From NCBI RefSeq assembly GCF_900168255.1, contig NZ_LT799838.1, forward strand, positions 1,488,001 through 1,552,000: a DNA stretch of 64,000 nt. Reading direction: 5' to 3'. Within the stretch, counting starts at the first letter, position 1; each line of letters begins with the position of its first letter. Under the pieces are notes generated by a model that saw only the letters and a program-made list of their open reading frames with translations, was not told where the DNA came from and ran no database searches. Positions 9,376-62,751 of the stretch are shown one piece after another. Both the position numbers and the translations under genes were made by a program. The stretch is from Psychrobacter sp. DAB_AL43B. Lineage in GTDB: Bacteria > Pseudomonadota > Gammaproteobacteria > Pseudomonadales > Moraxellaceae.

Positions 9376-9506
9376 TATAGTCAGTTCAAAATAAAAGCGA
9401 TACGATTGTAATAACGTGCTATTGCTTGCTGTGCGCAGGCGTGACAGAGGCTGCAAAAAATTTATAGTCAATAGCACTGTATCGTTTCTAAAATCAATCA
9501 ACTATA
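9376..9506 (+). repeat. Dispersed palindromic repeat, copy A
   Basis: A 131-bp element begins with TATAGTCAGTTCAAAATAAA and ends with a related inverted terminus (ATCAACTATA). An internal stem GTGCTATTG/CAATAGCAC flanks the conserved core CTTGCTGTG..GACAGAGGCTGC. Compared with copy B it lacks about 16 bp just left of the core. It sits 17 bases after the radA stop codon. Confidence 0.85.
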
Positions 9507-9534
9507 TAAAAACAAGCTTTGTAAAATTAAGCCA

Positions 9535-9576
9535 TAAAAAAGCGCCTAACTCATTATTCGTTAGGCGCTTTTTTTA
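9535..9576. terminator. Bidirectional terminator between radA and rlpA
   Basis: A perfect 10-bp stem (AGCGCCTAAC/GTTAGGCGCT) with a 9-nt loop is flanked by A-rich sequence on the left and seven T on the right, so it can end both convergent genes. Confidence 0.9.
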
Positions 9577-9654
9577 AATCTAAATTTAAATCTAAAAACC
9601 TTTATACAAAACCGTTAAAGGTTTAAACCGCGAATGGTCTAAAACGTTAATGGT

Positions 9655-10275
9655 TTAAGAAGATGGTCCTGCAACACGCTCAATAGCGACGTTACCCACA
9701 CCTTTAGCAGTAATACCAAGCTTTTTGGCAGCACCGTAGGATAAATCCATCACACGGTTGCCATGAAATGGACCACGATCGTTCACTTTTACGACGACGC
9801 TTTTACCGTTTGTCTTATTGGTTACTTTAACATAGCAGTTCAATGGCAGTGAGCGATGAGCAGCAGTTAAGCCGTTCATATCAAAGGTCTCGCCACTGGC
9901 TGTTTTGCGACCATGAAACTGGCGACCGTACCAAGAAGCTAAGCCCGTTTGTTTAAATTTGCTTACAGAATTGGATGCTACTGCCGTTAGACGCTCTAAA
10001 ACGTCTTCGTCATTACTGACTTGTGCAGTATCACTGGCTAACAGTGAGCTGCTGAGCGCTAATGAAGTAGGCTGGCGTGCCGATTTGACTAAGCTTGATG
10101 CACCGTCATGTTGACGACTAAGTTCACCGAGTACACGGTCGATATGGGAGGCGTTATCTTGCGAAACCATGGCAAGAGAGGTTTTTGATTCTACAGCATT
10201 TGCATTAGAAGCGATTGCAGAGCCAGCAAATAGTACGGCTGACATGGTAAGTAAACCAGATAAACGCTTATTCAT
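9655..10275 (-). CDS. rlpA: RlpA-family septal lytic transglycosylase-like protein
   Basis: RlpA proteins act on denuded peptidoglycan glycan strands at the septum. A signal peptide (about residues 1-27, ending near NANA) is followed by a low-complexity linker and a C-terminal double-psi beta-barrel domain (about 110-200) with GLASWYG, RKTASGETFD, AAHRSLP and VKVNDRGPF, which are the family hallmarks. There is no lipobox cysteine and no C-terminal SPOR domain, unlike E. coli RlpA, so it is probably a soluble periplasmic or exported form (206 residues). rodA lies upstream on the same strand, as in the classical mrdA-mrdB-rlpA order, but 1 kb away. Confidence 0.88.
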   Translation of the reverse strand: MNKRLSGLLTMSAVLFAGSAIASNANAVESKTSLAMVSQDNASHIDRVLGELSRQHDGASSLVKSARQPTSLALSSSLLASDTAQVSNDEDVLERLTAVASNSVSKFKQTGLASWYGRQFHGRKTASGETFDMNGLTAAHRSLPLNCYVKVTNKTNGKSVVVKVNDRGPFHGNRVMDLSYGAAKKLGITAKGVGNVAIERVAGPSS

Positions 10276-11233
10276 AAATACCTCTATAACTTATACCTTA
10301 GAACCTAACTCTAAAAAGTCTTAGAGGGAGCGAGATAGTGTTAGACCAACCTAACAGTACCGCAAACTCTAAAACCGATATCAATCATCTTTCTCATAAT
10401 AATTGATGTTATAGCTCGGTTTTTATAAGTTCTAACGTATGGTAATTTTTAATTCATCATCATAAATGAGTATAAGGTTTTGATAACCCAGTTATGACAC
10501 GCTCAAATGATGGTTAACAATCTTAATTGAAACATGCATCAACAACTAAAATCAGATACTAATATTCAATAAACAGCCTTTTTAACATTGCTAAGTTAAT
10601 AAAGGGTTTCGAGAGTCTCACGTATAAGTTTGTTATTAAACCGTTAATTAAGTAGTGACTTTGAAAGTCTAAAATCTACAAGTTGCTAACTATACGGATG
10701 AGCTACAACGACAATATAATTAAATGCTAACTTTCTTAGTAGCTCTGTACGGGTTATGTATAAATGACACTAAGACGAGATTAACGCAATTAATTGTAAA
10801 AAACAAGGAATAAAACCTATTGGTATTGAGTACTAAACGCTAAATATTCAACATGGTTTATAAGAGTGGTTTTTGCGTATATTATTAATAAAATCATGTA
10901 TTTATATATAAATACAGAGGGAGTAAACAGTGCTTTTTATCACAGTTTATGTAGAACTGATTACAAATAAGATTGGTGCGAGCGGGCTTATTTACTAGGA
11001 TTTTTGCTCATTCTATATTTACGTATAGTTACTTAATAAATAGATTTTAAGCCGAGTACGTACGGTTATTTGTTAATCTACTCATTTTTGAAACTTGCTA
11101 GGTTGTGTTTTACTTAGGTATTTAGCGATTGCCTTACCATAGCTATTTTCACTATTTTAGATACTAAAGTAAGTTCTCAAATACTGAATTTCTTAAAAGC
11201 TAAAACTATCTTGGTATGGCTTTCAAAGGGTAT
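10276..11233. other. Large non-coding gap between rodA and rlpA
   Basis: About 960 bases of AT-rich DNA hold no convincing gene on either strand. The rlpA-proximal part has an inverted repeat TGTTAG/CTAACA at about 10339-10355 inside a wider TTAGAG/CTCTAA pair, which would form a structured rlpA leader. A 22-codon GTG frame at 10930 follows a GAGGGAG sequence but has no other support. The gap may hide a small RNA or decayed DNA. Confidence 0.6.
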
Positions 11234-11272
11234 AAAAAAAGAGACCATGCAATGTAAACATAGGGTCTCTTA
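11234..11272 (-). terminator. Terminator of rodA
   Basis: On the minus strand AAGAGACC pairs with GGTCTCTT around a ~14-nt loop, followed by a run of seven T. It lies 24 bases after the rodA stop codon and so isolates rodA from rlpA. Confidence 0.85.
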
Positions 11273-11295
11273 AGTTATAAAAAAATTGGAAAATC

Positions 11296-12438
11296 TTAGC
11301 CAGATTTGTGAGTATGAATGGACATGAGTAAGCCGAAACCCGCCATTAAAGTGACGACGGCGGTACCACCATAGCTAATGAAAGGTAAGGGGACACCAAC
11401 AACAGGTAAAATACCGCCAACCATACCGACATTGACGAATACATAAACAAAGAAGGACATGGCGATAGCGCCTGCCAATAATCGGCTGTAAGTATCAGGA
11501 TGGGCGAAAGCGATATATAAAGCTCGTGTCAGTATGCAAGCATAAATAAACATTAACAGTATCACACCAAGCAAACCAAACTCTTCAGAAAAAGCGGCGA
11601 TAACAAAGTCGGTATGACCTTCTGGTAAGAAGTGTAAATGAGATTGCGTACCTTCCAAATAGCCTTTACCGGTCAGACCACCGGCACCGATGGCCGTTTT
11701 GGACTGAATAATATTCCAGCCTGCGCCTTGTACATCAGCCTCAGGATTGAATAGAGTGAGTACGCGCGTACGTTGATAGTCGTGTAATAAAAAGTTCCAA
11801 GCGACAGCAATAACTGGAATTGATAACGCCACAGCGCTTGCAATGAGTCGCCACGATAGTCCTGCCAAAAACAACACAAAGATACCGCTGGCGGCGACCA
11901 GTAATGAAGTACCAAGGTCAGGCTCTTTCGCAATTAATAATACCGGTACCACGATTAACGCTAAAGTAATGGCGATACTTGATAATGAGGGCGGTAAATC
12001 GCGCTTGGATAGGAACCACGCACACATCATGGGCATACCAAGCTTCATAAATTCTGACGGCTGTACACTGCCAAATCCTGGTAGATTAATCCAGCGTTGA
12101 GCGCCCATGCGCACCTCACCAATGATGTCAACCAACACCAGTAGTATCAGGCCCAATACATAAAAGATAGGCGTAAAGGTACGATAAATACTAGGTGGTA
12201 TTTGTGCCATGACAGCCATGACCGTAAATCCAACACCGTAGCTGACCATTTGCCGTATGACCATATCCGTATCTTGACCTGCCGCACTGTATAAAATCGT
12301 CAAACCAATGCAGCAAACGGTCAGTAACAGTAGGGTCAACCACGGATCGATATGAATACGCTGCCAGATTGTCGGTGTATGACCTTGACCTAAATGGTGG
12401 CTTTGACGAGAAAAACGGTATTGCGGGTTAGAAGACAT
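11296..12438 (-). CDS. rodA: Rod-shape peptidoglycan glycosyltransferase RodA
   Basis: RodA (MrdB) is the SEDS-family polymerase that makes lateral-wall glycan strands together with PBP2. It has about ten transmembrane segments and the SEDS signatures GAQRWINLPGFGSVQPSEFMK, LVLVDIIGEVRMG, KEPDLGTSLL and PLPFISYGGT. I place the start at ATG 12438 (MSSNPQ) because the TTG two codons earlier is weaker; no clear ribosome-binding site decides it. About 380 residues is the usual length. The partner mrdA is not adjacent in this window. Confidence 0.95.
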   Translation of the reverse strand: MSSNPQYRFSRQSHHLGQGHTPTIWQRIHIDPWLTLLLLTVCCIGLTILYSAAGQDTDMVIRQMVSYGVGFTVMAVMAQIPPSIYRTFTPIFYVLGLILLVLVDIIGEVRMGAQRWINLPGFGSVQPSEFMKLGMPMMCAWFLSKRDLPPSLSSIAITLALIVVPVLLIAKEPDLGTSLLVAASGIFVLFLAGLSWRLIASAVALSIPVIAVAWNFLLHDYQRTRVLTLFNPEADVQGAGWNIIQSKTAIGAGGLTGKGYLEGTQSHLHFLPEGHTDFVIAAFSEEFGLLGVILLMFIYACILTRALYIAFAHPDTYSRLLAGAIAMSFFVYVFVNVGMVGGILPVVGVPLPFISYGGTAVVTLMAGFGLLMSIHTHKSG

Positions 12439-12698
12439 AGGCAAAGTGTGACTGGCAATTGGCGTGGAAGAGAAGTGATTTTCGATAAATAAACGAGTAA
12501 TCAGCGATTATAAAGCGTTTATTCGACCAGATAATAACGAATAAAGTAACTTACGAGTAATAAAGTAACGTTAATATAAAAATGTTGAGGATAAGTGTTA
12601 ATAACGAATAGGTCGCTGCTGATTAGTGACGATAGTTTAGCTTGCTTGCTTAAAATTTGATAGTATCGATAAAACGTTTTTAGCGGTAGTTTCTTGTA

Positions 12699-13661
12699 AT
12701 GATCAATATCAAAAAACAAGCTTATGGAAAAATTCATCAGCCTATTATTGCACTATTTATTTGTGCCAGCAGTATCAGTGCTCATGCCGCCATTATCAGT
12801 GACAATAGCGAGCGCCGTATTCAAATACGTCATGGCAATAGCGCTACTAACAGCAGCACGAATGCCTACATCACGCCGTCTTCTCGAGAGGCAGGCCATA
12901 GTGGTGGCGTTACTATACTAAGCGGCGGGGAAAGTGGATCAAATAGGCTAAGTGGCGATAGTATGCAAGGGCTGATCCAACAAAAACAGCGTGAGTTTGA
13001 ATTTGATGCCAGCTTATCGATAGAAGAGAACAAACGTGTCAATACCAATAAACGTACGCCGAGCTATAACACCACCTATAGCACCGGTAGTAATAACTAT
13101 AATGATTTTACCAGTATGGATTTTAATACTTGGTTAAATAGTAACAGCTATCGCGCTGGGCAAGTGGCAAATTATCAACGCTACCTGAACTCACGAGTAG
13201 GCGCTCGAAATGTACCACCTTTATCGCAATTGCTTACGACTGCTCGTAGTTGGGATAAATGTGGTTATGAGCCTTATCAGCTACCACCGCAAGAGCTATG
13301 GTCAAACATTGTACCGACATTACAGTTATATGGTCAGCTAAAAAACCAAGGTATTTTGCCTGCCAGCACTGAGATACGCTCGGTATATCGCAGCCCTGGA
13401 TTAAATGACTGTGCTGGCGGAGCTAGTAGTAGTAAGCATATGACTGCTGGCGCGATCGATATCTGGGTACCTCAATACGAGGGTAACTCATGGCAGCTGA
13501 GCAGTATGCAAGATAGCTTATGCGAGTTTTGGCAATATCAGGGTCAGTCTCATAACTTTGGGCTAGGATTGTATTCCACCGGTGCTATTCATTTGGATAC
13601 CGATGGCTATCGTAAATGGGGCTTTAATCATGCCAGTAGCGGCTCTCCTTGCCGCTATTAA
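12699..13661 (+). CDS. Secreted M15-family D,D/L,D-peptidase-like protein
   Basis: An N-terminal signal peptide ends near SAHAA. About 130 low-complexity Ser/Asn/Gly-rich residues follow, then a C-terminal peptidase M15 domain (about 165-320). The zinc site is visible as H-x6-D in SKHMTAGAID (near residue 247) and a third His in AIHLDTDGYRKWG. Such enzymes trim peptide stems of peptidoglycan in the periplasm. Four Cys in the catalytic domain could form disulfides. It stands alone, divergent from rodA and ending at a bidirectional terminator. The exact substrate is unknown. Confidence 0.85.
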   Translation: MINIKKQAYGKIHQPIIALFICASSISAHAAIISDNSERRIQIRHGNSATNSSTNAYITPSSREAGHSGGVTILSGGESGSNRLSGDSMQGLIQQKQREFEFDASLSIEENKRVNTNKRTPSYNTTYSTGSNNYNDFTSMDFNTWLNSNSYRAGQVANYQRYLNSRVGARNVPPLSQLLTTARSWDKCGYEPYQLPPQELWSNIVPTLQLYGQLKNQGILPASTEIRSVYRSPGLNDCAGGASSSKHMTAGAIDIWVPQYEGNSWQLSSMQDSLCEFWQYQGQSHNFGLGLYSTGAIHLDTDGYRKWGFNHASSGSPCRY

Positions 13662-13681
13662 TAAGAACTATTCAGAGATAA

Positions 13682-13722
13682 AAATAAGCTCAGCCTGTAA
13701 AAATTACAGGCTGAGCTTATTT
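13682..13722. terminator. Strong bidirectional terminator
   Basis: An 18-bp nearly perfect stem (AATAAGCTCAGCCTGTAA against its complement) with a 3-nt loop ends in TTTTTT. It separates the M15 peptidase gene from the convergent M16 pair. Confidence 0.92.
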
Positions 13723-13749
13723 TTTGTACCGTATTGAAGGTAAAAGATA

Positions 13750-15297
13750 CTATTTGCTCGACTTCTTATCCCAAGGGTTAACCTCGCCAACGGTGACGAT
13801 TAAAAAGTCCTCAGGCTTTAATGTATCACGTAGGGTTTTATTGACTTCTGATAAGGTTACTTGTTCGATGCGATTGACATAATTACTAAGATAAGTTGTA
13901 GGTAGCTGATAAAAATTCATCATGCCGAGTAAACCATTAATCCCTGCATTACTGGCAAAACCCATCGGGAAACTGTTTTTTAGATTATCCGTCGTTAATT
14001 TCATCTCATCACTGGTGATGCCGTTTTTTAATGTATCGTCAATGACTGCTAAACTGGCATCAATCGCTGCACGTGCCTTGTCATTGCGAGTTGAAAAACC
14101 AATCTGATAAGGTCCACGTGCCAGCATTGGGTTCATAGAGCCTGAAATACCATAGGTATAACCAAGGTTTTGTCTGATTTCAGTCATCAGCCGCGCGTTA
14201 AAATCGCCCCCTGCCAACACTTCGTTCCCTACAGCAAAGTTGGTTTGCTTTTGCTGGGCTTGGGTATCAGTCGCACGCTTCTCGCCCAATTGTCCCATTA
14301 GCACAGTAGTTTGAGTGCTGGGAAACGGAATATGAATATGCTGAGCTTTTGTCAGTGGTTTTGGCTCGGGGAGGGTGGGTGCCGCTTGTCCCACTGGTAA
14401 ATTGACGGTGATATCTTCAGCCAGCTTTTTGGCTTGCGCTAAAGTTAGGTTCCCTGTCATAGCAAGTGATGCATTAGCAGCGACTAAATAACGATTTTTG
14501 AAATCTATAAGATGCTTTTTTTCTATGTTAGGAACCGTGTCAAGTGTCCCAACCGATGGGTGAGCGTAAGGATGGCTGCCATATAATGCTTTGTTAAAAG
14601 CAATGCTGGCAAGACTGTTAGGGTCTTGTTTTTGCTGCTGCAAACCGACCAATAACCGTGCTTTGTTACGCGCTAAAATTTGCTCATCAAAGCTCGGTTC
14701 GGTGAGCATTTGGGTCATCAAATCGATGGCAGGTAGTAAGTGCTTATCATCAGATAAACTGCGTAAAGAGACAGTAAACATATCTTTGTAGGCGCTGCTA
14801 CCTAGATTAATGCCCAAGGTTTCAACCGCGCGGGTGAACTCGTTTTCATCTAAACGCTTAGAGCCTTGTTCAAGCATCGTCGCCGTCATATTGGCGATAC
14901 CAAAGCCTGTGCTCTTTATGCTGCCATCACGAGCGCTACCCGCATTAAAACGCAAATCGATATCGACAATGGGTAATGCGGTCGTAGGTACAAAAAGCAC
15001 CGGCACACCGGCTTTGGTCTTAAACTGCTGAATCTTTGGTACCGTGACTTTCAAAGGTTTGGCATCATCAAGGCTGGTCAACTTAGACAAAGCAGCAATT
15101 GGCGCACTGATATCGACCGTAGATGGCTGAGTGCGGTTGTCTTCGCCAGCAGCCGTCTCTGCCTGAGCCGTTATGGTCAAAGTCGTCAGCCCTAAAAATA
15201 AACCCATACTAAAACAGGGCAGTTGCTTAAATGTTGGCTTTATTAACGACATCAAAGCGGTCTTCTTGTTAGTGTTGAGAATAATATTCTGAGTCAT
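13750..15297 (-). CDS. M16-family peptidase homologue lacking the zinc motif
   Basis: This 515-residue protein has a signal peptide (ending near TAQAE) and the two-lobed M16 fold, but the N-lobe position of HxxEH reads GIANMTATMLEQG, so zinc binding is lost. The C-lobe keeps the R..GYTYG substrate-binding segment (IRQNLGYTYGISG). It lies 68 bases downstream of a catalytic M16 gene on the same strand, which points to a heterodimer in which this is the non-catalytic subunit. A second Met at residue 16 would give a more compact signal peptide and is an alternative start. Confidence 0.88.
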   Translation of the reverse strand: MTQNIILNTNKKTALMSLIKPTFKQLPCFSMGLFLGLTTLTITAQAETAAGEDNRTQPSTVDISAPIAALSKLTSLDDAKPLKVTVPKIQQFKTKAGVPVLFVPTTALPIVDIDLRFNAGSARDGSIKSTGFGIANMTATMLEQGSKRLDENEFTRAVETLGINLGSSAYKDMFTVSLRSLSDDKHLLPAIDLMTQMLTEPSFDEQILARNKARLLVGLQQQKQDPNSLASIAFNKALYGSHPYAHPSVGTLDTVPNIEKKHLIDFKNRYLVAANASLAMTGNLTLAQAKKLAEDITVNLPVGQAAPTLPEPKPLTKAQHIHIPFPSTQTTVLMGQLGEKRATDTQAQQKQTNFAVGNEVLAGGDFNARLMTEIRQNLGYTYGISGSMNPMLARGPYQIGFSTRNDKARAAIDASLAVIDDTLKNGITSDEMKLTTDNLKNSFPMGFASNAGINGLLGMMNFYQLPTTYLSNYVNRIEQVTLSEVNKTLRDTLKPEDFLIVTVGEVNPWDKKSSK

Positions 15298-15365
15298 GTC
15301 TTTCTTCTTATTAATAGCGTTTTTAACAGTAATTTTTGTTGAGATAATCTAACAACACCTCGCCT

Positions 15366-16916
15366 TTATTTGCCTTTGGCTTCTTTTTTAGCTGGCGCTT
15401 TAACTTGCTTTTTAGTTTGGTCTTTAGGCGGAACGATATGCATCACCGTTAAATTATCTTTTACTAAGTACTTTTTACTAGCCGCTTGGATATCTGCAAT
15501 CGTTACGCTATCGAGCTTGGTTGGCAGTTTGGCAAGCAACCTATCATCAAGACCGATAGATTGTAATGAGCCAATCATGCGCGCCTGACCTTCCATACTG
15601 TCTTGCGCGTACACAAGACCCGTGACGGTATTGGTTTTGGCACGATTGATTTCATCTGCGGCAATTGGATCAGTTTTAAGCTTTTCTATTTCAGAGATTA
15701 TAGCTTGCTGTGCTTGCTCTAAGCTGACGCCTTCACGCGGGGTCGCTTGTATCAAAAACAGCCCATCGCCGCGATCCAGTAGATCATAGGATGTACCCAC
15801 TGTGGTGAGCAGACCTTGCTCGCGTATTAGTCTGCTCTCAAGGCGTGCAGATAGGCCACCATCTAATACGTCCTGAGCAAGCGAGAGCGCATAAGCCTGC
15901 TTTTCATTGCTTGTGCCTGCTGTTACAAGGCTCGGTACGTTATAACCCATTAATAAGACAGGCACTTGTACTGCTTGCTCGGATGCCACTTGCTGATAAC
16001 CCCGAAAGCCTTTTTGACTGACAGCAGGACGCTTAGGTAGCTTACTTGGTGTCAGCTCGCCAAAGTAACGCTTCACTTGAGTTAAGACTTCGCTCGGCTC
16101 AACATCGCCGACGATGACTAAGGTTGCATTATTTGGCGCATACCATATTTTATACCAGTCTTTTAAGTCGGAAAGCGTAATCGATTCAAGCTCATTCATG
16201 GGTCCGATGACCGACTCGCCTTTAGGGCTATTCGGCAAAGCAAGCAAGCGAAATGATTCATAAGCTTTGGCAAGTGGATTGTCATCGGTACGCTGACGGC
16301 GCTCTTCCATGACGACTTGATGCTCTTTGACAAATTCTTTCTCATCAAATACCAAGTTTTTCATACGATCCGCTTCAAGCTCTAACGCTAAAGGAAAGCG
16401 GTTGGCGGGGAACAGTTCGTAATAACCGGTATAATCGTAGCTCGTAAAGGCATTATTGACGCCACCGAATTTGGCAATCAAGCGCTCATAATCAGCACTT
16501 GAAACGTCCGCAGTTCCTTTAAACATCATATGCTCGAGCACATGAGAGATACCGCCTTTATCAAGCGGCTCATCGGCTGACCCTACGCGATACCAAATCT
16601 GAGTCATGACCACGGGCGCACGGTGGTCTTCTTTAACTACTATTTTTAGACCGTTTTCTAACTGATACTCATGGCGACCGGACATATCCATGGTCAGCGC
16701 TGATGATTGCTCAGTCTCTTTAGGGGCTTTATCCTGACCTGCTTTATTTTGACTCAAAGTATTTTGAGACACTGAACTTTGAGACACTGGACTTTTAACA
16801 GCAGACACTGGATTAGAATCAATGACATTGGTTTGGCAAGCCGCAAGCGTGGTTGCCATGGCTAAGGTAACGGCGAGGCGTAGAGAGAGAGCAGTTAGCG
16901 ATAAAGGTGAGGACAT
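15366..16916 (-). CDS. M16-family zinc peptidase, lipoprotein
   Basis: A lipobox (TLAAC, Cys27) marks this as a lipid-anchored periplasmic protein. The inverted zinc motif HxxEH is intact as HVLEH (His125, Glu128, His129), with the distal Glu in VVMEERRQR. The remaining chain has the usual two M16 half-domains, 516 residues in total, and a Lys-rich tail. It is followed by the motif-less homologue, so the two probably act as a heterodimer degrading peptides or misfolded periplasmic or outer-membrane proteins. The substrate is not known from sequence. Confidence 0.92.
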   Translation of the reverse strand: MSSPLSLTALSLRLAVTLAMATTLAACQTNVIDSNPVSAVKSPVSQSSVSQNTLSQNKAGQDKAPKETEQSSALTMDMSGRHEYQLENGLKIVVKEDHRAPVVMTQIWYRVGSADEPLDKGGISHVLEHMMFKGTADVSSADYERLIAKFGGVNNAFTSYDYTGYYELFPANRFPLALELEADRMKNLVFDEKEFVKEHQVVMEERRQRTDDNPLAKAYESFRLLALPNSPKGESVIGPMNELESITLSDLKDWYKIWYAPNNATLVIVGDVEPSEVLTQVKRYFGELTPSKLPKRPAVSQKGFRGYQQVASEQAVQVPVLLMGYNVPSLVTAGTSNEKQAYALSLAQDVLDGGLSARLESRLIREQGLLTTVGTSYDLLDRGDGLFLIQATPREGVSLEQAQQAIISEIEKLKTDPIAADEINRAKTNTVTGLVYAQDSMEGQARMIGSLQSIGLDDRLLAKLPTKLDSVTIADIQAASKKYLVKDNLTVMHIVPPKDQTKKQVKAPAKKEAKGK

Positions 16917-29855: not shown

Positions 29856-30091
29856 ATGATGACCTTTTATAATAATAAATTATAACAACAAAAAAACATG
29901 CTATCAAAACCAGCATTGGTAGTGTGGTTTATGAGCATGCTATCGAGTGAATTAATTGGCTATAGCGTAACGGTTAATGCCTTGAATGGCAAGGGCAGAG
30001 ACTAAACAATAGGGTCATTCAGTCCGCTAAATAATAGATAGCTGCTGACCCTATTATTTTTGCAATGAGTGAGAGCGGCTGCTGTTAATGC
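29856..30091. other. Non-coding region with inverted repeat
   Basis: No gene is visible. A 10-bp perfect inverted repeat AATAGGGTCA (30008-30017)/TGACCCTATT (30046-30055) with a 28-nt loop and ATTTTTG to its right may be an old terminator of the S4-domain gene, now separated from it by repeat copy B. Confidence 0.45.
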
Positions 30092-30238
30092 TATAGTAGA
30101 TTCACTTTAAAAACGATACAGTGCTATTGGCTATAAATTTTTTGCAGCCTCTGTCATGCCTGCGAACAGCAAGCAAGAAAAAATGATAGCAATAGCACGT
30201 TATTACAATCGTATAACTTTTATTTTGAACTGACTATA
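30092..30238 (-). repeat. Dispersed palindromic repeat, copy B
   Basis: A 147-bp copy in the opposite orientation to copy A and its closest relative: both share CGATTGTAATAACGTGCTATTG. Ends are TATAGTAGATTCAC and TGAACTGACTATA. Its last base directly abuts the stop codon of the S4-domain gene. Confidence 0.88.
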
Positions 30239-30661
30239 TTAGTCTTGACTGCTTTTAAAGCGTTGTAAATCACGACGCTCTTTTTTATTAGGTTTGTTAT
30301 CAGGACGGGCAAGATTGGCAAGTTTACGCTGCTCGGCATAATAGGCACGGCGCTCTTCACTTTCCTTAGTCTCTGAATATAGCACTTCGGCAGCAGTAGC
30401 ATTACCACGTTGCGCAGTTAGCGCTTCGACAAGCACGGTTTTTTCAGTCATCGCGGTCGCTGAACCTTGGCGGATAGTTAATTCATCGCCGACCGAAATC
30501 TCTTTACTGGTCTTCACACGGCTACCGCCATAGTGTACTCGTCCGCTTTCGATAGCTTGTTTGGCAAGCGTGCGTGTTCGATAAAAACGCGCCGCCCACA
30601 GCCATTTATCAAGACGGATTTTGGCTAAGCCTTGATTTTTAGCATCCATATTATTTTTCAT
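30239..30661 (-). CDS. hslR: S4-domain RNA-binding protein, Hsp15-like
   Basis: The 140-residue protein has an S4 domain in the first 65 residues (RLDKWLWAARFYRTRTLAKQ, ESGRVHYGGSRVKTSKEISVGDELTI) and a Lys/Arg-rich tail, the layout of Hsp15, which binds 50S subunits carrying stalled nascent chains. It is flanked on both sides by inverted copies of the dispersed repeat; copy B abuts its stop codon and copy C lies 107 bases upstream of its start. Confidence 0.88.
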   Translation of the reverse strand: MKNNMDAKNQGLAKIRLDKWLWAARFYRTRTLAKQAIESGRVHYGGSRVKTSKEISVGDELTIRQGSATAMTEKTVLVEALTAQRGNATAAEVLYSETKESEERRAYYAEQRKLANLARPDNKPNKKERRDLQRFKSSQD

Positions 30662-30767
30662 AATAGCTACTCTGCATTAATGTCTGTATTGATTTAAAAT
30701 AAGATATTATCAATGAGATTAGGGCATATTTGATATTTGCAAACAGTTTTTTACGGTTAGTCGTATA

Positions 30768-30914
30768 TATAGTAAGTTCAAAATAAAATACGTACGACTA
30801 TCACAACACTCTGCTGATATAAATTTTTCTCGCTTGCTGTGCACTTCGCCAGACAGAGGCTTCAAAAAATTCATACCAGCAATACTATATTCTCTTTAAA
30901 GTGAATCGACTATA
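30768..30914 (+). repeat. Dispersed palindromic repeat, copy C
   Basis: This 147-bp copy has termini TATAGTAAGTTCAAAATAAA and TTTAAAGTGAATCGACTATA. The internal stem TGCTGATATAAATTTTT/AAAAAATTCATACCAGCA surrounds CTTGCTGTGCACTTCGCC-AGACAGAGGC. The stem sequence differs from copies A and B on both arms while pairing is kept. Confidence 0.88.
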
Positions 30915-30934
30915 GTAAGCGTGATAGAGTCAAA

Positions 30935-31573
30935 TTAACGATGATTGCACTCGGCAACTTTTATAGCCATCGCTGCGGCATCGTTTGTATTTAACTTCTC
31001 TAAATCAGTGATCACACCTGCGATGTTTTCTGCTGTTTTATTTTGGCTTAATTTAAATTGGGCTTGGATGGAATCTATAGGAAGTTTAAAGCCGATAATG
31101 CCTCGACACATAGCATCGATATAAGCAGCGGGTGCATCCTCTAATGACCAAGGGTTGTCTGAAACGATCTCTTGCTGCGCGGTCATGGTTTCCAGTATCC
31201 ACTTAAGCTTGTCTGTATCTTCGATCAATTCTATCTTAGATTGAATATGTATACTTTGATAGTTCCAAGTGGGCACTTCTTTATGAGTTTTTGCTTTGCT
31301 GGGATACCAATTGGGACTGATATAATGCCCTGTATCTTGAAAAATAATTAACCACAAGGTATCTGGCAAGGCGTCTTGATAAATAGAGTTTTTCCGACCG
31401 AAATGACCATAAAGGCAGCCGTATTGTGAATGATCATCATGCCAAAACAAAGGAATATGACAGGCTTCAATGCCTTTGCTGGTTTGCGCAATCAAGGAGG
31501 CTAATGGCTTAGCTGCTATAAAATTAAGGATGTTTTCAAGATTTTCTTCGGCAAAAATTGAAGGTATGTGCAT
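30935..31573 (-). CDS. PaiB-like FMN-binding protein
   Basis: The 212 residues match the PaiB/FMN-binding split-barrel family: MHIPSIFAEEN at the start, LYGHFGRKN, then YISPNWYPSK and VPTWNYQSIH. Bacillus PaiB was described as a negative transcriptional regulator of sporulation and protease genes; in gammaproteobacteria the role is unclear and a flavin-dependent function is equally possible. It lies alone between the repeat and the excalibur gene on the same strand. Confidence 0.9.
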   Translation of the reverse strand: MHIPSIFAEENLENILNFIAAKPLASLIAQTSKGIEACHIPLFWHDDHSQYGCLYGHFGRKNSIYQDALPDTLWLIIFQDTGHYISPNWYPSKAKTHKEVPTWNYQSIHIQSKIELIEDTDKLKWILETMTAQQEIVSDNPWSLEDAPAAYIDAMCRGIIGFKLPIDSIQAQFKLSQNKTAENIAGVITDLEKLNTNDAAAMAIKVAECNHR

Positions 31574-43425: not shown

Positions 43426-43573
43426 TATAGTCGATTCACTTTAAAAAGAATGCAGTATTGCTAGTATAAGTTTCTCGAAGCCTCTGTCTGGCGAAGCGCA
43501 CAGTAAGCGAGAAAAATTTATACCAGCAGAATATTGTAAAAATCGTATATATGCTATTTTGAACTTATTCTAC
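43426..43573 (-). repeat. Dispersed palindromic repeat, copy D
   Basis: Opposite orientation to copies A, C and E. The left end TATAGTCGATTCACTTTAAA is intact; the right end has drifted (GAACTTATTCTAC). Its core (GCTTACTGTGCGCTTCGCCAG) is closest to copy C. It lies 30 bases after rsmA and separates it from apaH. Confidence 0.85.
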
Positions 43574-43678
43574 AGAAGTTATCGATACATTTAACTGATG
43601 TTTACCTATAATAAGAGTCAATTTCTATCATAAAAAATGACCATACAAAAACTATCACATACAAATCATCGAGGTATT

Positions 43679-54804: not shown

Positions 54805-54945
54805 TATAGTCAGTCCTAAATAAAAAAGTACAAATATTATAACGCGCTACTGGGATAAATTTTCCTTGCTTGCTGTGCCTGCGCAGACAGAGGCAGCGCA
54901 AAATTTGTCCCAGTAGCACTGTTTTTTTATAGTGAATCGACTATA
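54805..54945 (+). repeat. Dispersed palindromic repeat, copy E
   Basis: 141-bp copy with termini TATAGTCAGTCC and GTGAATCGACTATA. Its internal stem is the longest in the window: GCTACTGGGATAAATTTT pairs with AAAATTTGTCCCAGTAGC almost perfectly, around CTTGCTGTGCCTGCGC-AGACAGAGGC. It ends three bases before the metF terminator. Confidence 0.9.
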
Positions 54946-54947
54946 CA

Positions 54948-54978: not shown

Positions 54979-55004
54979 CATTAAATGATAAATTGAGCAA
55001 TTGT

Positions 55005-55853: not shown

Positions 55854-55866
55854 AGTCTGGCTCCTT

Positions 55867-57291
55867 TTAGTATTTATAAGCGTCAGGCTTAAATGGACCT
55901 TCGACAGGCACACCCAAATACTCAGCTTGTTTTTCAGTCAGCTTGGTCAAAGTACCATTAAAACCAGCAACCATCGCAGCGGCCACTTCTTCGTCTAGTT
56001 TCTTCGGTAATACTTTGACGTATAAGTTTTCGGTACGCGTATCCACTGGCAATTCAGCGAATTTTTCTTCAAACAGATACATCTGTGCCAATACTTGGTT
56101 AGCAAATGAGCCGTCCATCACACGTGATGGGTGACCCGTTGCGTTACCTAGGTTCACTAAGCGACCTTCAGCAAGCAAAATCAAATAGTCGTTCTCATCG
56201 TCTGAGCGGAAGATTTGATGGACTTGTGGCTTAATCTCAACCCAGCGCCAGTTATCACGCATAAACTGAGTGTCAATTTCGGTATCAAAGTGACCGATAT
56301 TACAAACGACTGCACCAGGTTTTAGCGCCGCAAGCATATGTTTGTCACAAACATGATAGTTGCCCGTAGTGGTGACAATCATGTCGGTGTCTTCGAGTAA
56401 GCGAGTATTGATGTTTTCTGCGCCGCCAGTGTTATCGCCATTGATGTAAGGGGATAATACTTCAAAACCGTCCATACAAGCCTGCATAGCGCAGATAGGA
56501 TCAACTTCTGAAACACGGACAATCATGCCTTCTTGACGTAAGCTTTGCGTAGAGCCTTTACCAACATCACCATAACCGATAACTAAAGCGCGGCGACCAG
56601 CAAGGAACATGTCAGTAGCACGTTTGATAGCGTCATTTAAGCTATGACGGCAGCCGTATTTGTTGTCGTTTTTAGACTTGGTAACTGCATCGTTGACGTT
56701 GATCGCTGGTACTTTTAGCGACCCTTTATTTAACATCTCAACCAAGCGATGGACGCCGGTAGTGGTTTCTTCTGAGATACCATGGATATTATCAAGTAGC
56801 TCTGCATAATCATTATGAATCAAAGCAGTCAAATCGCCGCCATCATCCAAGATTAAATTGGCATCCCAAAGCTGACCTGATGCTTCACCGCCTACATGGA
56901 TTTGTTGACGTAAGCACCATTCGTATTCTTCTTCGGTTTCGCCTTTCCAAGCATAAACAGAGATACCAGCAGCAGCAATAGCAGCAGCAGCGTGGTCTTG
57001 GGTTGAGAAGATGTTACATGAGGTCCAACGTACTTCAGCACCTAGCGCAATGAGCGTCTCGATAAGAACGGCGGTCTGGATGGTCATGTGGATACAGCCA
57101 GCGATTTTCGCGCCTTTAAGCGGCTGATCCGCTTCGTAGCGACGACGCAAACCCATTAGGGCAGGCATTTCAGCTTCAGCAAGGGTAATTTCACGGCGGC
57201 CGTAATCAGCTAAGCTGATGTCAGCGACTTTATAGTCAGTGAAAGCGGGGTTGATCGTATGGGCAGATGGGGTGTTAGACACTGCGTCCAT
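55867..57291 (-). CDS. ahcY: S-adenosylhomocysteinase
   Basis: AhcY hydrolyses S-adenosylhomocysteine to adenosine and homocysteine with bound NAD. Motifs: [66 protein letters not shown] segment, [11 protein letters not shown] (NAD loop), and the C-terminal KPDAYKY. 474 residues is the long bacterial form. metF follows immediately, and a probable SAH riboswitch precedes it, so the operon should respond to accumulated SAH. Confidence 0.97.
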
Positions 57292-57336
57292 AATATGCTC
57301 CTATCAGTGGTTAATTTATGATAAAAAGAATAATAA

Positions 57337-57479
57337 CGCAGGTGCCGTTGTTATGCTGTCAAAGACTGAAATAACCAGTATCAAACAGTTTACCGAGCCT
57401 AACATGATGAATATATCAGCTTATTTTGCTTATGAAGCGCAAACATAACAATCAATTCATATGGTGCAACACCTCTCGG
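57337..57479 (-). promoter_or_regulatory. S-adenosylhomocysteine (SAH) riboswitch
   Basis: Read on the minus strand, P1 forms between CCGAG (57475-57479) and CTCGG (57393-57397). The conserved strings GTTGCACC and TTAGGCTCGGTAA, and a 3' CAACGGCACCTGCG match the SAH aptamer. AGGTG (57470-57474) pairs with CACCT (57340-57344); the classic aptamer has GAGCG/CGCTC at this place, so pairing is kept with different bases. A long AT-rich hairpin (ATGAAT/ATTCAT plus TTTGC/GCAAA) fills the variable arm. It lies 45 bases before ahcY, the usual target of this class. Confidence 0.85.
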
Positions 57480-57582
57480 AGGTCGTTATTGTAATTGATG
57501 GCAGTTAATTTGTCACCTATTGGCTGTGGAAAATAGTAAGCGCTCATGACACACAAAATTTCTTTAGATTATTGAGACCCAT

Positions 57583-57613
57583 AAAAAAGGCCACCTAATA
57601 AATAGATGACCTT
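57583..57613 (-). terminator. Terminator of the TonB-dependent receptor gene
   Basis: AAGGTCATCT pairs with AGGTGGCCTT (three G-T pairs) around a 7-nt loop and is followed by TTTTTT on the minus strand. Confidence 0.75.
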
Positions 57614-57653
57614 AATTATTAATAATAGGGTTTGCAATTTGGGCTAAGTAATT

Positions 57654-59564
57654 TTAGAACCAGTTATAGGTTAATGAGGTAAAGAAATTAATACCGTCAG
57701 TATTATAGTCTGGCACCGTAATGTATTTCTCATTGGTGATATTATTTAAACGAGCAGTCATAGTGAGGTCATCTGTCAGTTGGTAATTACCACTGATATT
57801 CAACAGCCCATAATTATCGACAGGTTGGGTTTCACCGTTATCATTATAATAATCGCCTACATATTCATATTCAGCACGAATATCTAAGCTTGGTAGACGA
57901 TAGCCAGCGTATATCAAACCTTTATGTTCAGGACGAATTTTTAGGAATTTTCCGTCATTGCTGCCGCCAGTATCGTTTTTAGCCTGCTGATAATCATAGC
58001 TACCGCCGAACAGATAGTTATCGACTATCCAATCTGATGTTAAGGTAACGCCTTCAATTTTTGCCTTATCGACGTTTTCACTGCCACCTGCCCAAGGGTT
58101 ATTGGCCGTTGGTTTTGCGACATAACTGATTAAATCATCGACTTTATTGTGATAGCCAGTCAAACGCGTCGACTGAAGGTTGTTATCATATTCAATAAAA
58201 GCTTCATAGTTGTCGCTGTTTTCGGGCTTTAAATCAGCGTTCCCTGAGCCGGGGTAGTAAAGGTCGTTAAATGAAGGAGCGCGAAACCCTTTTGCGTAGC
58301 TTACACCAAGACGAAGATTGGGGTTGATGTGATAAGCACCACCTAAATTATAAGTGGTTTGGTCACCATACTGAGAGTTGTCATCAAAGCGTAAGTTAGC
58401 TTGTGCATCGAATTGGTTATTGGTCATTACATAGCCCAAAAATGCACTGGTAACGTCACGGTCATCGATTTCATAAGCCGTCGTATCGATACTTTGGTTT
58501 AAATATTCCACGCCATAGACACCTTTACCGACAGGCAAAGTATGTTGTCCAACCAAGCTTATTTGATCTTGCTTAGTGTCGTAGCGGCTACTATAGGCAC
58601 TATGGTCATCAATTTTATCGATAGAATGACCGTATTGTAATTTAACTGAAGAGTCTGTGAGATAACGCCAGTCAATAAAAACTTGGGCCGCGCCATTTTC
58701 TTGATTAGAATAGACATTGGCCAAATCGGTACTGTCGTACTCAGTGGTTGATTTGCTATATAGCGCACTTGCTCCAGCTGACCACTGCTCATTGATACGT
58801 TGGGTTAAAGCAGCGCTAAAGTTGTCGCTCTCAAAACCATCGTCATCACTGTTGTAGTTATAGATATTTGAAGGTAGGGCGGCATTGAAGCCGTCTGTTT
58901 CATTGTGACTGGCTGAAAGGCTCAATGCCGTGCCATTGTCATTGGTAAACTGAGCACTAGCACCGTACAGATATTGATTATGAGAGCCGACGCCAGCAGT
59001 CACTGAAAGATTGGTTTTTTTAACATTTGAACCTTTAGTAAAGACTTGAATGACACCGCCCATCGCATCGGCACCGTAAATACTGGAACCTGAGGCGCCA
59101 TACAATATTTCGATACGGTCAATTTGATCAGCAGGAAGTAGTTGCAGCGAAGCGCCTCCATCACTTACAGAGCTATAACGTATGCCATCGATAAGCACCA
59201 ATATTTGCTTATTATCATAACCGCGCATATAAAAGTTTGAAACCTTGCCAACACCGCCATTGCTGTAATGACTAAATCCCGGCTGACGCTTTAATACATC
59301 AAGGGCACTTTGACCTTGATAACGTTGCAATTCTTCGCTATCGATTACACGAGTTTGGGCGATAACGTTGCTCGTCTTAGTGGGCGTACGCGTCGCTGTT
59401 ACGACGATTTTATCAAGCTCAACTTCTGGTAGCTCGCTATCATTCATGGCGCTGACGATATTTAGTTCATTAGTGGTAGCTGTTGCATTCATGGCAAATA
59501 CGCTAAGCGTGCTTAAAATACATAACCGAAGATAGGTAGTCGAAGATGTACGTGATAAAGCCAT
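57654..59564 (-). CDS. BtuB-like TonB-dependent outer-membrane receptor
   Basis: A signal peptide (start ATG 59564, MALSRTSS, with GGAA upstream; a TTG seven codons earlier is less likely) precedes a TonB box-like DKIVVTATR, a plug domain (about 50-160) and a beta-barrel ending in Phe (YNWF), as needed for BAM insertion. The compact ~636-residue size and plug sequence (DVLKRQPGF, MRGYDNKQILVLIDGIRY, IEILYGASGSSIYGADAMGGVIQVFT) are closest to BtuB-type receptors. The ligand (cobalamin, a metal chelate or other) cannot be fixed; no cobalamin riboswitch is seen upstream. Confidence 0.88.
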   Translation of the reverse strand: MALSRTSSTTYLRLCILSTLSVFAMNATATTNELNIVSAMNDSELPEVELDKIVVTATRTPTKTSNVIAQTRVIDSEELQRYQGQSALDVLKRQPGFSHYSNGGVGKVSNFYMRGYDNKQILVLIDGIRYSSVSDGGASLQLLPADQIDRIEILYGASGSSIYGADAMGGVIQVFTKGSNVKKTNLSVTAGVGSHNQYLYGASAQFTNDNGTALSLSASHNETDGFNAALPSNIYNYNSDDDGFESDNFSAALTQRINEQWSAGASALYSKSTTEYDSTDLANVYSNQENGAAQVFIDWRYLTDSSVKLQYGHSIDKIDDHSAYSSRYDTKQDQISLVGQHTLPVGKGVYGVEYLNQSIDTTAYEIDDRDVTSAFLGYVMTNNQFDAQANLRFDDNSQYGDQTTYNLGGAYHINPNLRLGVSYAKGFRAPSFNDLYYPGSGNADLKPENSDNYEAFIEYDNNLQSTRLTGYHNKVDDLISYVAKPTANNPWAGGSENVDKAKIEGVTLTSDWIVDNYLFGGSYDYQQAKNDTGGSNDGKFLKIRPEHKGLIYAGYRLPSLDIRAEYEYVGDYYNDNGETQPVDNYGLLNISGNYQLTDDLTMTARLNNITNEKYITVPDYNTDGINFFTSLTYNWF

Positions 59565-59585
59565 ATTTAATTCCAAATTGGTCAA

Positions 59586-59975
59586 ATAAATAAGATACAG
59601 AAGAGAGAGCCAAGAAGTTAAAAATTACAAAAAGTAATAAATAGATTACACGTCGCCATTATCTATAAAAGTGCTCGACTTATAAACCACTTTAACCTAA
59701 TTTTTATTCATCATAAGGTGAATATCTCTCAAGGTTGGCTGGTCTTTATTGGCTTAACTGCTATCAGCGACTCTTACAAGGTTATTAGATAATGTTGTTG
59801 ACGAGTGATGATGGTTTTTATCATCAAGATTGCTATGTCGTTTATAAAAAGTGAAAGCGTCGTAGGCATAACACGTTTCGCCATAAAAACACGCAATCAA
59901 AAGCATTGCTGTCATAAATAATTGCTATTATAGTGGCAGATTTTATCTGTTTTTCGTTATGCCATTCATAAAGCT
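59586..59975. other. Divergent promoter region of receptor and MscS genes
   Basis: 390 AT-rich bases. I looked on the minus strand for a cobalamin riboswitch, Fur box and Zur box and found no convincing match. No gene is present. Confidence 0.5.
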
Positions 59976-61943
59976 ATGAGGTTTGTTTTGTCTATTAAGC
60001 GTAATCTGAGTACTAGTTCCTCGCAATCTCCATCTTCATTAATATTATTAACTAAGACACCGCTAATGGTGATCGCATTTCTTATCGTCATGATATTAAG
60101 TGTCATCACGCCACATAGTGCGCTGGCCGCTGAAGCGAGCATACTGGGTGTGGGTGGTACAAAAACGGAAGAAGGAGCTGATACATCGATACCGGATTCA
60201 TTTGGACGTGATACGCCGCGTCATACTGTACAAGGGTTTCTCAATGCGCTGGGAGAAAACGATTATCTGCTGGCGAGTAATTATTTAAATTTATCTAAGT
60301 CTGATAATCCGACTACAATCGTGCGGCAGTTTAAACAAGCCCTTGATGCGGGTGGCCGTTTTCAGCCTGATTTGCAAATTAATAATACGCCTGAAGGCAA
60401 TTTAACCGATCAGTTACCGCCAAGCCAAGAAAATGTGGGTGTCATCAACGTCAGTGATAAAAGTGTACCGCTGGTACTTGAAAGAGTGGTTTCTAAGCAA
60501 GGGGAACAATACTGGCAGTTTTCTACTGATACGCTCAGCTCAATACCAGAAGTCATAGAAAATTCTGAACCCACTTTAGTCTCTCGCTATACCATTGATT
60601 CTTTAGAAGGTAAAAAGCTATTCGGCTATCAGTTGGCTGACTTGGTAGCCGCTTTGGCGATGACTATCAGCAGTTTTTTATTCACTTATATTGCCGTATG
60701 GCTACTGTATCATTTGTTAAAACTCACTTATCCTCGTGTCCGTGGTGTACCACTGCCATTGCCAGATAGAGTCATATTGCCGTTGGCTGTGGTGATTATG
60801 GCACTGATTTTATCTGAGGTGATGGTTTACGCTGGCGTGTCAGTGACCTTGCGCGAGCCGGTCAACCGCTTCGCTGAGATTGCTTCGTGGGTAGCGATAA
60901 CGTGGTTGTTATTACGCATTATCGATGCCTTATTTACCCGTGCAGTGAATTTAAGCTATAAGAAGAACTATACTGAACGGGTCTCAATTTTGGGACTGCT
61001 ACGCAAAATCGTCAAAGCGCTGCTGTTGATATTTGCAGTCATCGTCACCTTCGGAAATTTGGGCTTTGATCTAACGACTGGTATTGCCGCATTAGGGGTA
61101 GGTGGTTTAGCGTTAGCATTAGGTGCGCAAAAGACCATCGAAAACTTAGTAGGCAGTGTCGTGGTGGTGGCCGATTCGCCCGTACGCATCGGCGACTATT
61201 GTAAATTTGGTACTTATGAGGGTACTGTCATCGATATTGGTATTCGTTCATCACGCGTGCGTACCTTGACCCGTACTATCGTCACCGTACCTAACGGTGA
61301 TTTTTCTTCGATGCAAATTGAAAACTTTACCTCGCGTGATATGTTCCGCTTTTTACATCAGCTATATATCAAACGTACGGCTGATATCGACGTTGTTTTC
61401 CAAATGGTTAAGCACTTGGATAAGTTTTTGGATGAACACGAGTTGACCAACCAAGAATGGAATCAGGTCAATATTTTAGAGTTACGTCAAGATTGCTATA
61501 TTATTCAATTACAAGCCTACGTCAATGCTAGCGGTATTATTGAATTCTACGACAAGCAAAACGTGTTATTCGTTGATCTGTTAATGCAAGTTAGAAAATA
61601 TGATGTAGAGCATGCCTTGCCAACACAGCAGCTTATTGTCAAGCAACCAGAACTTCTGGCTCAATTAGAACATGAAGGCGAAAGTGAGGCAGCTGACAAG
61701 AAAGCTGATCAAAAAATTGCTGCTGCTGATAAGCCGCAAGCGGTTAATTTAAGCAAAGATGTGGATACTATTGATAATGAGCAGATAATAGAGAAACCCA
61801 AAGATACCTTAAAAAAGCACATGGTGGATAATAGATACAAACACATTCATAAAAATCGCGGTTATGCTTTAGCGAGATTAAAGTTCAAACAGGTAAAAAA
61901 GAGCTTTCGATTTCCTAAAGTCAAAAACCATGTAGTGAAATAG
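59976..61943 (+). CDS. MscS-family mechanosensitive channel (large type)
   Basis: The 655-residue protein has a signal-like first helix, a periplasmic domain (about 50-215), then four or five hydrophobic segments and the conserved MscS pore and beta domain: GIAALGVGGLALALGAQKTIENLVGS, ADSPVRIGDYCKFG, GTVIDIGIRSSRVRTL and IVTVPNGDFSS. Pore-helix Gly/Ala packing is visible. It should release ions on membrane tension in hypo-osmotic shock. The last ~90 residues are a Lys/Asp-rich cytoplasmic tail of unknown role. Confidence 0.93.
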   Translation: MRFVLSIKRNLSTSSSQSPSSLILLTKTPLMVIAFLIVMILSVITPHSALAAEASILGVGGTKTEEGADTSIPDSFGRDTPRHTVQGFLNALGENDYLLASNYLNLSKSDNPTTIVRQFKQALDAGGRFQPDLQINNTPEGNLTDQLPPSQENVGVINVSDKSVPLVLERVVSKQGEQYWQFSTDTLSSIPEVIENSEPTLVSRYTIDSLEGKKLFGYQLADLVAALAMTISSFLFTYIAVWLLYHLLKLTYPRVRGVPLPLPDRVILPLAVVIMALILSEVMVYAGVSVTLREPVNRFAEIASWVAITWLLLRIIDALFTRAVNLSYKKNYTERVSILGLLRKIVKALLLIFAVIVTFGNLGFDLTTGIAALGVGGLALALGAQKTIENLVGSVVVVADSPVRIGDYCKFGTYEGTVIDIGIRSSRVRTLTRTIVTVPNGDFSSMQIENFTSRDMFRFLHQLYIKRTADIDVVFQMVKHLDKFLDEHELTNQEWNQVNILELRQDCYIIQLQAYVNASGIIEFYDKQNVLFVDLLMQVRKYDVEHALPTQQLIVKQPELLAQLEHEGESEAADKKADQKIAAADKPQAVNLSKDVDTIDNEQIIEKPKDTLKKHMVDNRYKHIHKNRGYALARLKFKQVKKSFRFPKVKNHVVK

Positions 61944-61947
61944 CCTA

Positions 61948-62625
61948 TTATACTGGCAGAGCTTTTCTATTATTCAGCCAGCCATAATGTGACCATAGTA
62001 GTAAACTAGCAGCACTGCGATGTGGCGACCACTCTTTAGTTGCTGTCTCTAATTGCTTTGGCGTTGGGCGTTCTGCTAAGCCTAATAAATGCATCGCAGC
62101 GACTTTAATCGCTAAATCATCGACAGCGAGTACATCAGATCGCCCCAAAGAGAATAATAAATACATCTCGGCAGTCCAACGGCCAATGCCAACGACGGCA
62201 GTGAGTGTTTTAAGCACCTCGTTATCACTCATTGTGGTCAATGCTTCAAAATCGATATCATGCTCAACCAATGAGCGCGCATAACGAATTTTTTGTTTAG
62301 ATAGACCTTGTGCTCGCAATATATCGTCTTCTACCTGAATAATCGTTTGCGGTGAGGTGAGGTTAGCGTCAAGCAGTTTTTTCCAAATGCTGGAAGCCGC
62401 CGCTACGGAGAGTTGTTGACCCACCATCGCTCTTAGTAGCTGCTCAAAGCCACCGGTATTACGTCGTAAGTCTGGTACGCCCACTTGATCGTAGATAGGA
62501 GCAAATCTTGGCTCAATAGCGATCAGTGCGTTGATGTGAAGCTTTAGCTGTTCAGTCGTTTCCGTTATTTCAACGGCGTCGATGTTTTCAGCGCTTTCAG
62601 TAGTCTCAATGATTTGTAAGCTCAT
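61948..62625 (-). CDS. AlkA-type DNA-3-methyladenine glycosylase
   Basis: This HhH-GPD superfamily protein of 225 residues removes alkylated purines from DNA. Seen: MVGQQLSVAAASSIWKKL, the helix-hairpin-helix LTAVVGIGRWTAEMYLLFSLGR, and the catalytic Asp in DVLAVDDLAIK. It lacks the N-terminal AlkA domain, as in the short MAG/AlkA2 type. Its stop lies four bases from the convergent mscS-family stop. With the alkyltransferase at 19 kb it gives two independent alkylation-repair enzymes. Confidence 0.92.
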   Translation of the reverse strand: MSLQIIETTESAENIDAVEITETTEQLKLHINALIAIEPRFAPIYDQVGVPDLRRNTGGFEQLLRAMVGQQLSVAAASSIWKKLLDANLTSPQTIIQVEDDILRAQGLSKQKIRYARSLVEHDIDFEALTTMSDNEVLKTLTAVVGIGRWTAEMYLLFSLGRSDVLAVDDLAIKVAAMHLLGLAERPTPKQLETATKEWSPHRSAASLLLWSHYGWLNNRKALPV

Positions 62626-62675
62626 GACAGACTTATCCTATATGGTTAAAGCTATTCAACATGAATGAAGCTATT

Positions 62676-62751
62676 TATAGTCGATTAACCATAAAATTCA
62701 TACCAGCAGAATGTTATGACAATCGTACGTATTTTATTTTGAATTACTATA
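62676..62751 (-). repeat. Dispersed palindromic repeat, copy F (internally deleted)
   Basis: 76 bp. It keeps both termini (TATAGTCGATTAACC and GAATTACTATA) and one arm (ATACGTACGATTGTCATAAC in reverse) but lacks the core loop and the other stem arm. It lies between the glycosylase and Smr genes. Confidence 0.75.

Follow-up and report, generated by a model that had tools for sequence, protein, structure and literature searches.

Miniature inverted-repeat transposable elements (MITEs) encode nothing; what they need beyond their ends is mostly unknown, and how they are selected is an open question. Among other short bacterial repeats, REPINs are moved by a Y1 transposase, and the ends of the Correia/NEMIS repeats begin TATAG. 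The closest described case to the repeats studied here appears, by analogy, to be RUP of pneumococcus. According to the consulted parts of PMC2229807 and PMC3049150, RUP is a 107-bp intergenic sequence of Streptococcus pneumoniae, with ~110 copies and a TA target, which is tightly folded with its ends pairing, and whose ends are like those of the co-resident insertion sequence (IS) IS630-Spn1. The Correia/NEMIS elements (CREE) of Neisseria, as presented in the consulted part of PMC2229807, are ~107 and ~155 bp long, with terminal inverted repeats, a terminal TA and folded transcripts. In Acinetobacter, of the family Moraxellaceae, the consulted part of PMC6382973 describes MITEAba12, a short MITE with terminal inverted repeats whose ends match ISAba12 and which makes 9-bp target duplications; relatives of ISAba12 have ends of the GGCTTTGTTGCACAAA type. 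Here we analyse a family of palindromic repeats, six copies of which (A to F) lie in a stretch of 64,000 nucleotides from Psychrobacter sp. DAB_AL43B, another member of the Moraxellaceae. We refer to this whole stretch as the window; it occupies positions 1488001-1552000 of a genome of 3,309,148 bases (assembly GCF_900168255.1, contig NZ_LT799838.1). Transposons of this type are already known.

We prefer the reading, to which we assign a probability of roughly 0.7, that the repeats are IS630-type MITEs of ~130-150 bp, mobilized in trans, whose hairpin pairing is kept in source lineages. IS630 transposases would recognise the ~28-bp ends of the MITEs and insert the elements in trans at TA; the ends would enclose an 82-nt hairpin cassette common to MITEs with several end sequences across Psychrobacter; and pairing would be maintained in the lineages that produce copies, and lost freely in the copies that have been inserted. 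Since pairing of this kind is kept at the source and lost after insertion, we infer that the hairpin aids the propagation of the element, or its tolerance while it is still new, instead of acting for the host at individual sites.

Covariation within a shared hairpin

The hairpin cassette of 82 nt consists of a 20-pair outer stem, a short inner stem and a variable apex, and the same cassette is found between different end types, in the DAB_AL43B genome as well as in its relatives. We assembled an alignment, A1, of 131 hairpins from this genome and related ones. That is, 163 hairpins were reduced to the 138 that have both core anchors and full arms, then to the 134 with at least 15 paired bases and an uncut arm, and finally to 131 upon removal of three duplicates. 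From the alignments of whole elements, either 7 copies (63 to 56) or 5 copies (63 to 58), which were odd or had an inverted core, were dropped before counting.

Under the named structure, 92.7% of the 3397 cells of A1 are paired, compared with 87.9% in shuffles that ignore relatedness. Changes on both sides occur at 14 of the 26 pairs, all of them within the 20 pairs of the outer stem (9.8 in shuffles), and cells changed on both sides number 196, compared with 52 in shuffles. When the partner is slid by 1-3 columns, the signal of covariation is lost. The compensatory stem changes first noticed among the six window copies are thus borne out, and are much stronger with 131 hairpins. Between 26 pairs of near neighbours in the DAB_AL43B genome, the sites that differ amount to 2.5% in the loop and 2.7% in the left end, 7.6 and 5.9% in the stem arms, and 12.4% in the right subterminal stretch.

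When compensation occurs

In both hairpin sets (A1 and the second set defined below) we compared each hairpin with its nearest neighbour, and we calculated the number of compensated double changes expected if the two sides change independently. Neighbours with 1-4 differences (93 pairs) show 105 single changes and 1 compensated change, where 0.5 are expected. With 5-8 differences there are 219 single and 13 compensated changes (2.8 expected), with 9-14 differences 197 and 38 (3.1 expected), and with 15-25 differences 49 and 8 (0.8 expected). Compensation is therefore in excess only between the more diverged copies, which argues that pairing is kept along source lineages and not in each inserted copy; the inserted copies appear to decay freely. 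A preliminary description of the window had proposed that recognition or selection acts on a folded DNA or RNA. This proposal fits the source lineages but not the inserted copies, as the near-identical ones show no excess of compensation.

The timescale of compensation points to selection among source copies; it speaks against both a fast correction of palindromes and a host function of each copy. The first of these alternatives is upkeep at the level of the DNA: the arms of the inner palindrome would be made to match again at replication, through template switching or through repair templated by the hairpin, sometimes with a flip of the loop, and no selection on a fold would be involved. Arm recombination or template switching predicts a core that is inverted relative to the ends, and such cores occur in two copies of the DAB_AL43B genome (L001:2076-2222 and L012:1200-1345) and in loci L101 and L111, as if the loop had been flipped between the stem arms. 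The ratio of 105 single changes to 1 compensated change among near-identical copies, however, leaves no room for a fast correction, and a further difficulty arises from the strand asymmetry of the mismatches.

Strand asymmetry of mismatches

Mismatches within the stem were counted on the strand reading GCCTCTGTC..GCACAGCAAGC. On this strand, G.U outnumbers A.C by 194:42 in A1 and is favoured at 14 of the 16 positions with a difference (p 0.004). The same comparison was made in a second set of 151 hairpins outside A1, obtained from 178 matches of which 170 were complete, 152 of these were not in A1, and 151 had at least 12 of 20 Watson-Crick pairs. Here the ratio is 198:81, and G.U is favoured at 18 of 19 positions. 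Counted by parsimony as events leading away from Watson-Crick pairs, the asymmetry is 75:38 in the first set and 100:49 in the second. Controls for asymmetric mutation come from outside the stem. The first set gives 461:420 in the outer regions and 63:75 in the loop (stem versus outer regions, Fisher p 0.005). Transitions in the second set number 383:376 for the outer regions, which differs from the 100:49 of the stem at p 2e-4, and 78:79 for the loop, which differs from it at p 0.003.

A double-stranded cruciform should lack any preference for G.U, and thus a single strand seems to matter. The asymmetry suggests, though it does not prove, that what counts is a single-stranded fold, of RNA or of single-stranded DNA, of the strand GCCTCTGTC..GCACAGCAAGC. 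For the same reason, correction of a cruciform should not favour G.U on one strand, as 14/16 and 18/19 positions do. Upkeep of the palindrome by DNA repair is therefore unlikely in our view, even if a real share of the probability is still left to it.

Insertion sites and genomic placement

We searched the joined flanks of six copies of genome G005 in genome G006. One site is contiguous, that is, empty, at 93% over 112 bases; a second is likewise contiguous, at 79%; at a third, both genomes carry the element; and the joined flanks of the remaining 3 of 6 gave no match in G006. The 93% site reads ..AAAGC-TA-TGTTG.. where empty and ..AAAGC-TA-[TAGTC..GACTA]-TA-TGTTG.. where filled. The target duplication of TA that had been anticipated at empty sites is thus seen in one filled/empty pair, on the basis of a contiguous BLAST match and of a reading of both sequences. 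In the window, copy B is missing at its site in 8 of 8 aligned relatives and copy C in 6 of 6. With matched pieces that are mostly 71-87% identical in the relatives, these empty sites do not allow placement with single-base precision.

In the DAB_AL43B genome, 71 copies have an open reading frame (ORF; called mechanically, at least 90 aa) on both sides, and 70 of the 71 lie between ORFs: 18 in convergent, 39 in tandem and 13 in divergent arrangement. The repeats had been described as intergenic and as usually following a gene end; the latter holds only partly, since most copies are not convergent. Convergent sites are nonetheless enriched in the fetched Psychrobacter loci, where they hold 33 of 122 copies compared with 14% of intergenic TA sites (p 2e-4), and divergent sites are depleted, at 21/122 compared with 27% (p 0.011). 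Copies beside tandem genes are oriented 23 co-directional to 16 antisense in the DAB_AL43B genome and 36 to 32 in the fetched loci, so that no orientation bias is found over both sets (59:48, p 0.33). Nor does the wobble bias depend on the orientation of host genes: G.U to A.C is 102:34 in co-directional and 67:31 in antisense copies (ratios of 3.0 and 2.2, Fisher p 0.30). Since bias and insertion are both independent of host-gene orientation, the element itself would have to produce any RNA involved.

These counts bear on the second alternative, according to which the inserted copies are 3'-end hairpins, either terminators or stabilisers of mRNA, that are kept by the host. The convergent enrichment, including 18 of 70 copies in the DAB_AL43B genome itself, is what such a function would lead one to see. 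The depletion of divergent sites, however, means that avoidance of promoters can account for this enrichment. Moreover, orientation beside tandem genes is unbiased, the wobble bias runs in the same direction in both orientations, near-identical copies lack an excess of compensation, and copies B and C are missing at their sites in the aligned relatives. We therefore regard maintenance by the host as improbable.

Ends and a candidate partner

The repeats are short (131-149 bp for the five long copies of the window), non-coding and present in many copies, and they carry terminal inverted repeats, with a terminal TATA at 48 left and 51 right ends among 63 full-length copies. We identified 28 IS630 elements with paired ends, including one in the DAB_AL43B genome; all measure 889-920 bp except this last copy, of 980 bp. 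Most of the 28 share an end scheme of TATAGTC, then TAAA, then GATAC or TTAT, and the ends of the MITEs follow the same scheme. TATAGTCAGTTCAAAATAAA, the left end of subfamily I, recurs with 0/20 mismatches in IS630 loci of congeners, namely in 5 of the 30 fetched. In one such IS, two ORFs match HTH_Tnp_IS630 (PF01710) and DDE_3 (PF13358), and the second of them also matches NCBIfam IS630 over the cut-off. Across the genus, 48 of 60 genomes, that of DAB_AL43B included, match DDE_3 (PF13358), 44 of them above the curated cut-off. A mobile element resembling a MITE had been suggested from the window, and this suggestion is now backed by ends of the IS630 type, by the TA duplicated relative to an empty site, and by the occurrence of an autonomous partner type in congeners. 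A profile of the hairpin, on the other hand, has no match in the fetched IS630 loci at E <= 10, and so the cassette is not derived from those IS bodies.

As the preliminary description had stated, the window contains neither an autonomous transposase nor a REP-associated one (REP, repetitive extragenic palindromic): the DDE_3 matches of the DAB_AL43B genome, in two regions, and its one Y1 domain all lie outside it. The search for a matching IS elsewhere in the genome led to a single IS630 copy, at 1280110-1281089 (L118:1057-2036), which has both ends and two overlapping frames, and in which the TATAGTCAGTTCAAAATAAA end is identical over 20/20 bases. The catalytic domain encoded by this copy contains additional codons next to the motif VMD, and directly after the copy comes a second fragment of an IS630 end. 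A partner of the autonomous type is thus present in the same genome as well, though probably in damaged form.

The Y1 domain, a match of Y1_Tnp (PF01797) at 821968-822327, is the one feature that would speak for a REP/REPIN origin, with movement by a RAYT (Y1) transposase. The match has one internal TAA stop, and the repeats share their ends with IS630 and show a duplicated TA, for neither of which REPINs are known; this origin is very improbable.

Copy number and spread

Model R1, built on the hairpin, matches at least 98 distinct places in the DAB_AL43B genome (best 150 of 2150 candidates scored; 108 rows, 10 of which are the same place on the opposite strand). The further copies that had been looked for in the genome thus exist, and the repeat family is real. 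BLAST with copy C finds at least 42 matches in this genome (best 40 of 98 candidates scored), and a right-end 20-mer with at most 3 mismatches finds 75, whereas the reversed pattern, used as a control, finds 0. Together, the window and the fetched loci hold 80 non-overlapping profile matches, 63 of full length, and an alignment of the copies shows at least 4 subfamilies.

Across genomes, BLAST with copy C is positive in 20 of 38, all 20 being among the 25 of the same genus (DAB_AL43B included), and negative in all 13 outside it. R1 at E <= 1e-4 is found in 26 of 119 genomes of the family, namely 25 of the genus and one of another genus (G113, genus g20). An exact core pattern, searched in one genome per GTDB species, occurs in at least 120 stretches; the matches listed bear 80 titles, all Psychrobacter. 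Given at least 98 places genome-wide, a reversed control of 0 and a cassette in 25 genomes of the genus out of 119, the probability that the family reflects chance similarity or local duplication is negligible.

In G114, a congener with a genome of about 2.65 Mb, one 28-base end has 157 + 161 = 318 matches (reversed control 0) and a 137-bp element region at least 43 at 93-100% identity (best 40 of 371 candidates scored). These copies, for example those at L234 and L210, constitute a recent-looking burst of one subfamily. With copy C as query, a plasmid collection gave no match, although records of very near genomes may have been excluded there. Covariance models of Rfam gave 0 matches in the window at the gathering score, and 0 at E <= 1 for positions 30000-31000.

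Three observations concern individual loci. Of the 119 family genomes, the only one of another genus that R1 matches is G113, at L225, and a transfer between genera is possible. At L238 (G002) and L234 (G114), hairpin elements of different subfamilies seemingly occupy the same intergenic place; they seem to reflect repeated insertion or replacement. Finally, L229, L230 and L231 (in G050, G039 and G004) hold the same MITE insertion with near-same flanks in three species. There, GACTA is followed by GGGCGTGTTGAAC, which we take to resemble the end of another IS, and the MITE may travel on a shared mobile segment.

The copies of the window

The window holds five long copies and one deleted copy, all related (Table 1). 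A profile made from the six finds A-E at E <= 6.4e-36 and F in part at 4.5e-12; since these matches hold by construction, it is the genome-wide searches that serve as independent checks. The six copies had been said to have a common core. This is true of A-E, whereas F has lost the core together with one arm, and R1 finds no hairpin at its position. The stem variants named in the preliminary description are present in the window copies. Pairing of the inner stem of copy A, however, extends only to the outer CTATTG/CAATAG part, because ~16 bases of one inner arm are gone relative to B; its hairpin is matched by R1 at 1497397-1497479 of the genome. A TTA at 30239 adjoins the right end of copy B and opens a stretch that is conserved in relatives. 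In our reading, this TTA is where a gene on the minus strand has its stop codon.

Table 1. MITE copies in the window (window positions).
Copy	Positions	Strand	Length (bp)	Hairpin part	Remarks
A	9376..9506	+	131	9397-9479	strand is that reading CTTGCTGTGC
B	30092..30238	-	147	30119-30201	
C	30768..30914	+	147	30805-30887	
D	43426..43574	-	149	43453-43535	one end degenerate
E	54805..54945	+	141	54841-54921	
F	62676..62751	-	76		both ends present; without core and one arm

Points that weigh against the reading

Several results do not sit easily with IS630-type MITEs whose pairing is kept at the source. Some of them concern the fold. RNAalifold, given the mixed alignment of whole elements, predicts no more than a fragment, and that for a single strand; given the hairpin alignment, it recovers the stem incompletely (14 pairs on the minus strand, 9 on the plus strand), which is why we counted pairs geometrically. 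Total predicted folding stability does not differ between the strands (63 copies, p = 0.28). Furthermore, one constant pair of the inner stem, read from A1 and left out of the structure, is C.A on the favoured strand and G.T on the other.

Others concern the asymmetry of substitutions. In the second set it stems mainly from A>G versus T>C (56:16), while C>T versus G>A is near balance (39:32), and single-site transitions in the stem are balanced overall (36:45 and 74:77). Polarity under parsimony is uncertain. In addition, G.U outnumbers A.C by 40:20 even among near-identical copies, which selection at the source would not by itself predict. As to mobility, the IS630 copy of the DAB_AL43B genome may, judging by its sequence, be inactive, and the role of an IS630 transposase acting in trans is deduced from the sequences.

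One may go further and suppose that the hairpin of 82 nt acts as a propagation module that is portable. Lineages of IS630-type MITEs would depend on its single-stranded, strand-specific fold (of RNA or of single-stranded DNA) for their multiplication; MITEs that differ in their ends would exchange it, and it would sometimes be flipped, be selected among source copies over the time span of the genus, and help to drive bursts such as that behind the 318 ends of G114. We offer this only as a tentative extension, about which we are doubtful.

Comparison with known systems

Its many copies and diverse subfamilies, together with a burst that looks recent and a partner whose type can be identified, make this family one in which the effect of an internal fold on the success of a MITE is testable, and model R1 can be used for annotating the intergenic repeats of Psychrobacter. 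In the literature that we searched, with most subscription papers outside its scope, the Psychrobacter repeat family was not found under any name, and we found there no description of a shared, covarying cassette with different ends and pairing kept at the level of lineages.

REPINs, with their RAYTs, resemble the present repeats in being palindromic, intergenic and present in many copies, and differ from them in that the Psychrobacter repeats have IS630-type ends and a TA duplication. The ends of the Correia/NEMIS elements are similar to some of the IS630 ends found here; a difference is that their partner transposase is unnamed in the consulted part of PMC2229807. MITEAba12, as far as the consulted part of PMC6382973 describes it, is likewise a short MITE with terminal inverted repeats in the family Moraxellaceae, but its ISAba12-matching ends and 9-bp duplications set it apart as unrelated to the Psychrobacter repeats. 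RUP differs in its length of 107 bp and its firmicute host, and the consulted parts of its descriptions report no covarying inner cassette across end types. What RUP has in common with our family, compared by description only and from the same parts, is that both are short intergenic repeats with IS630-like ends and a TA target.

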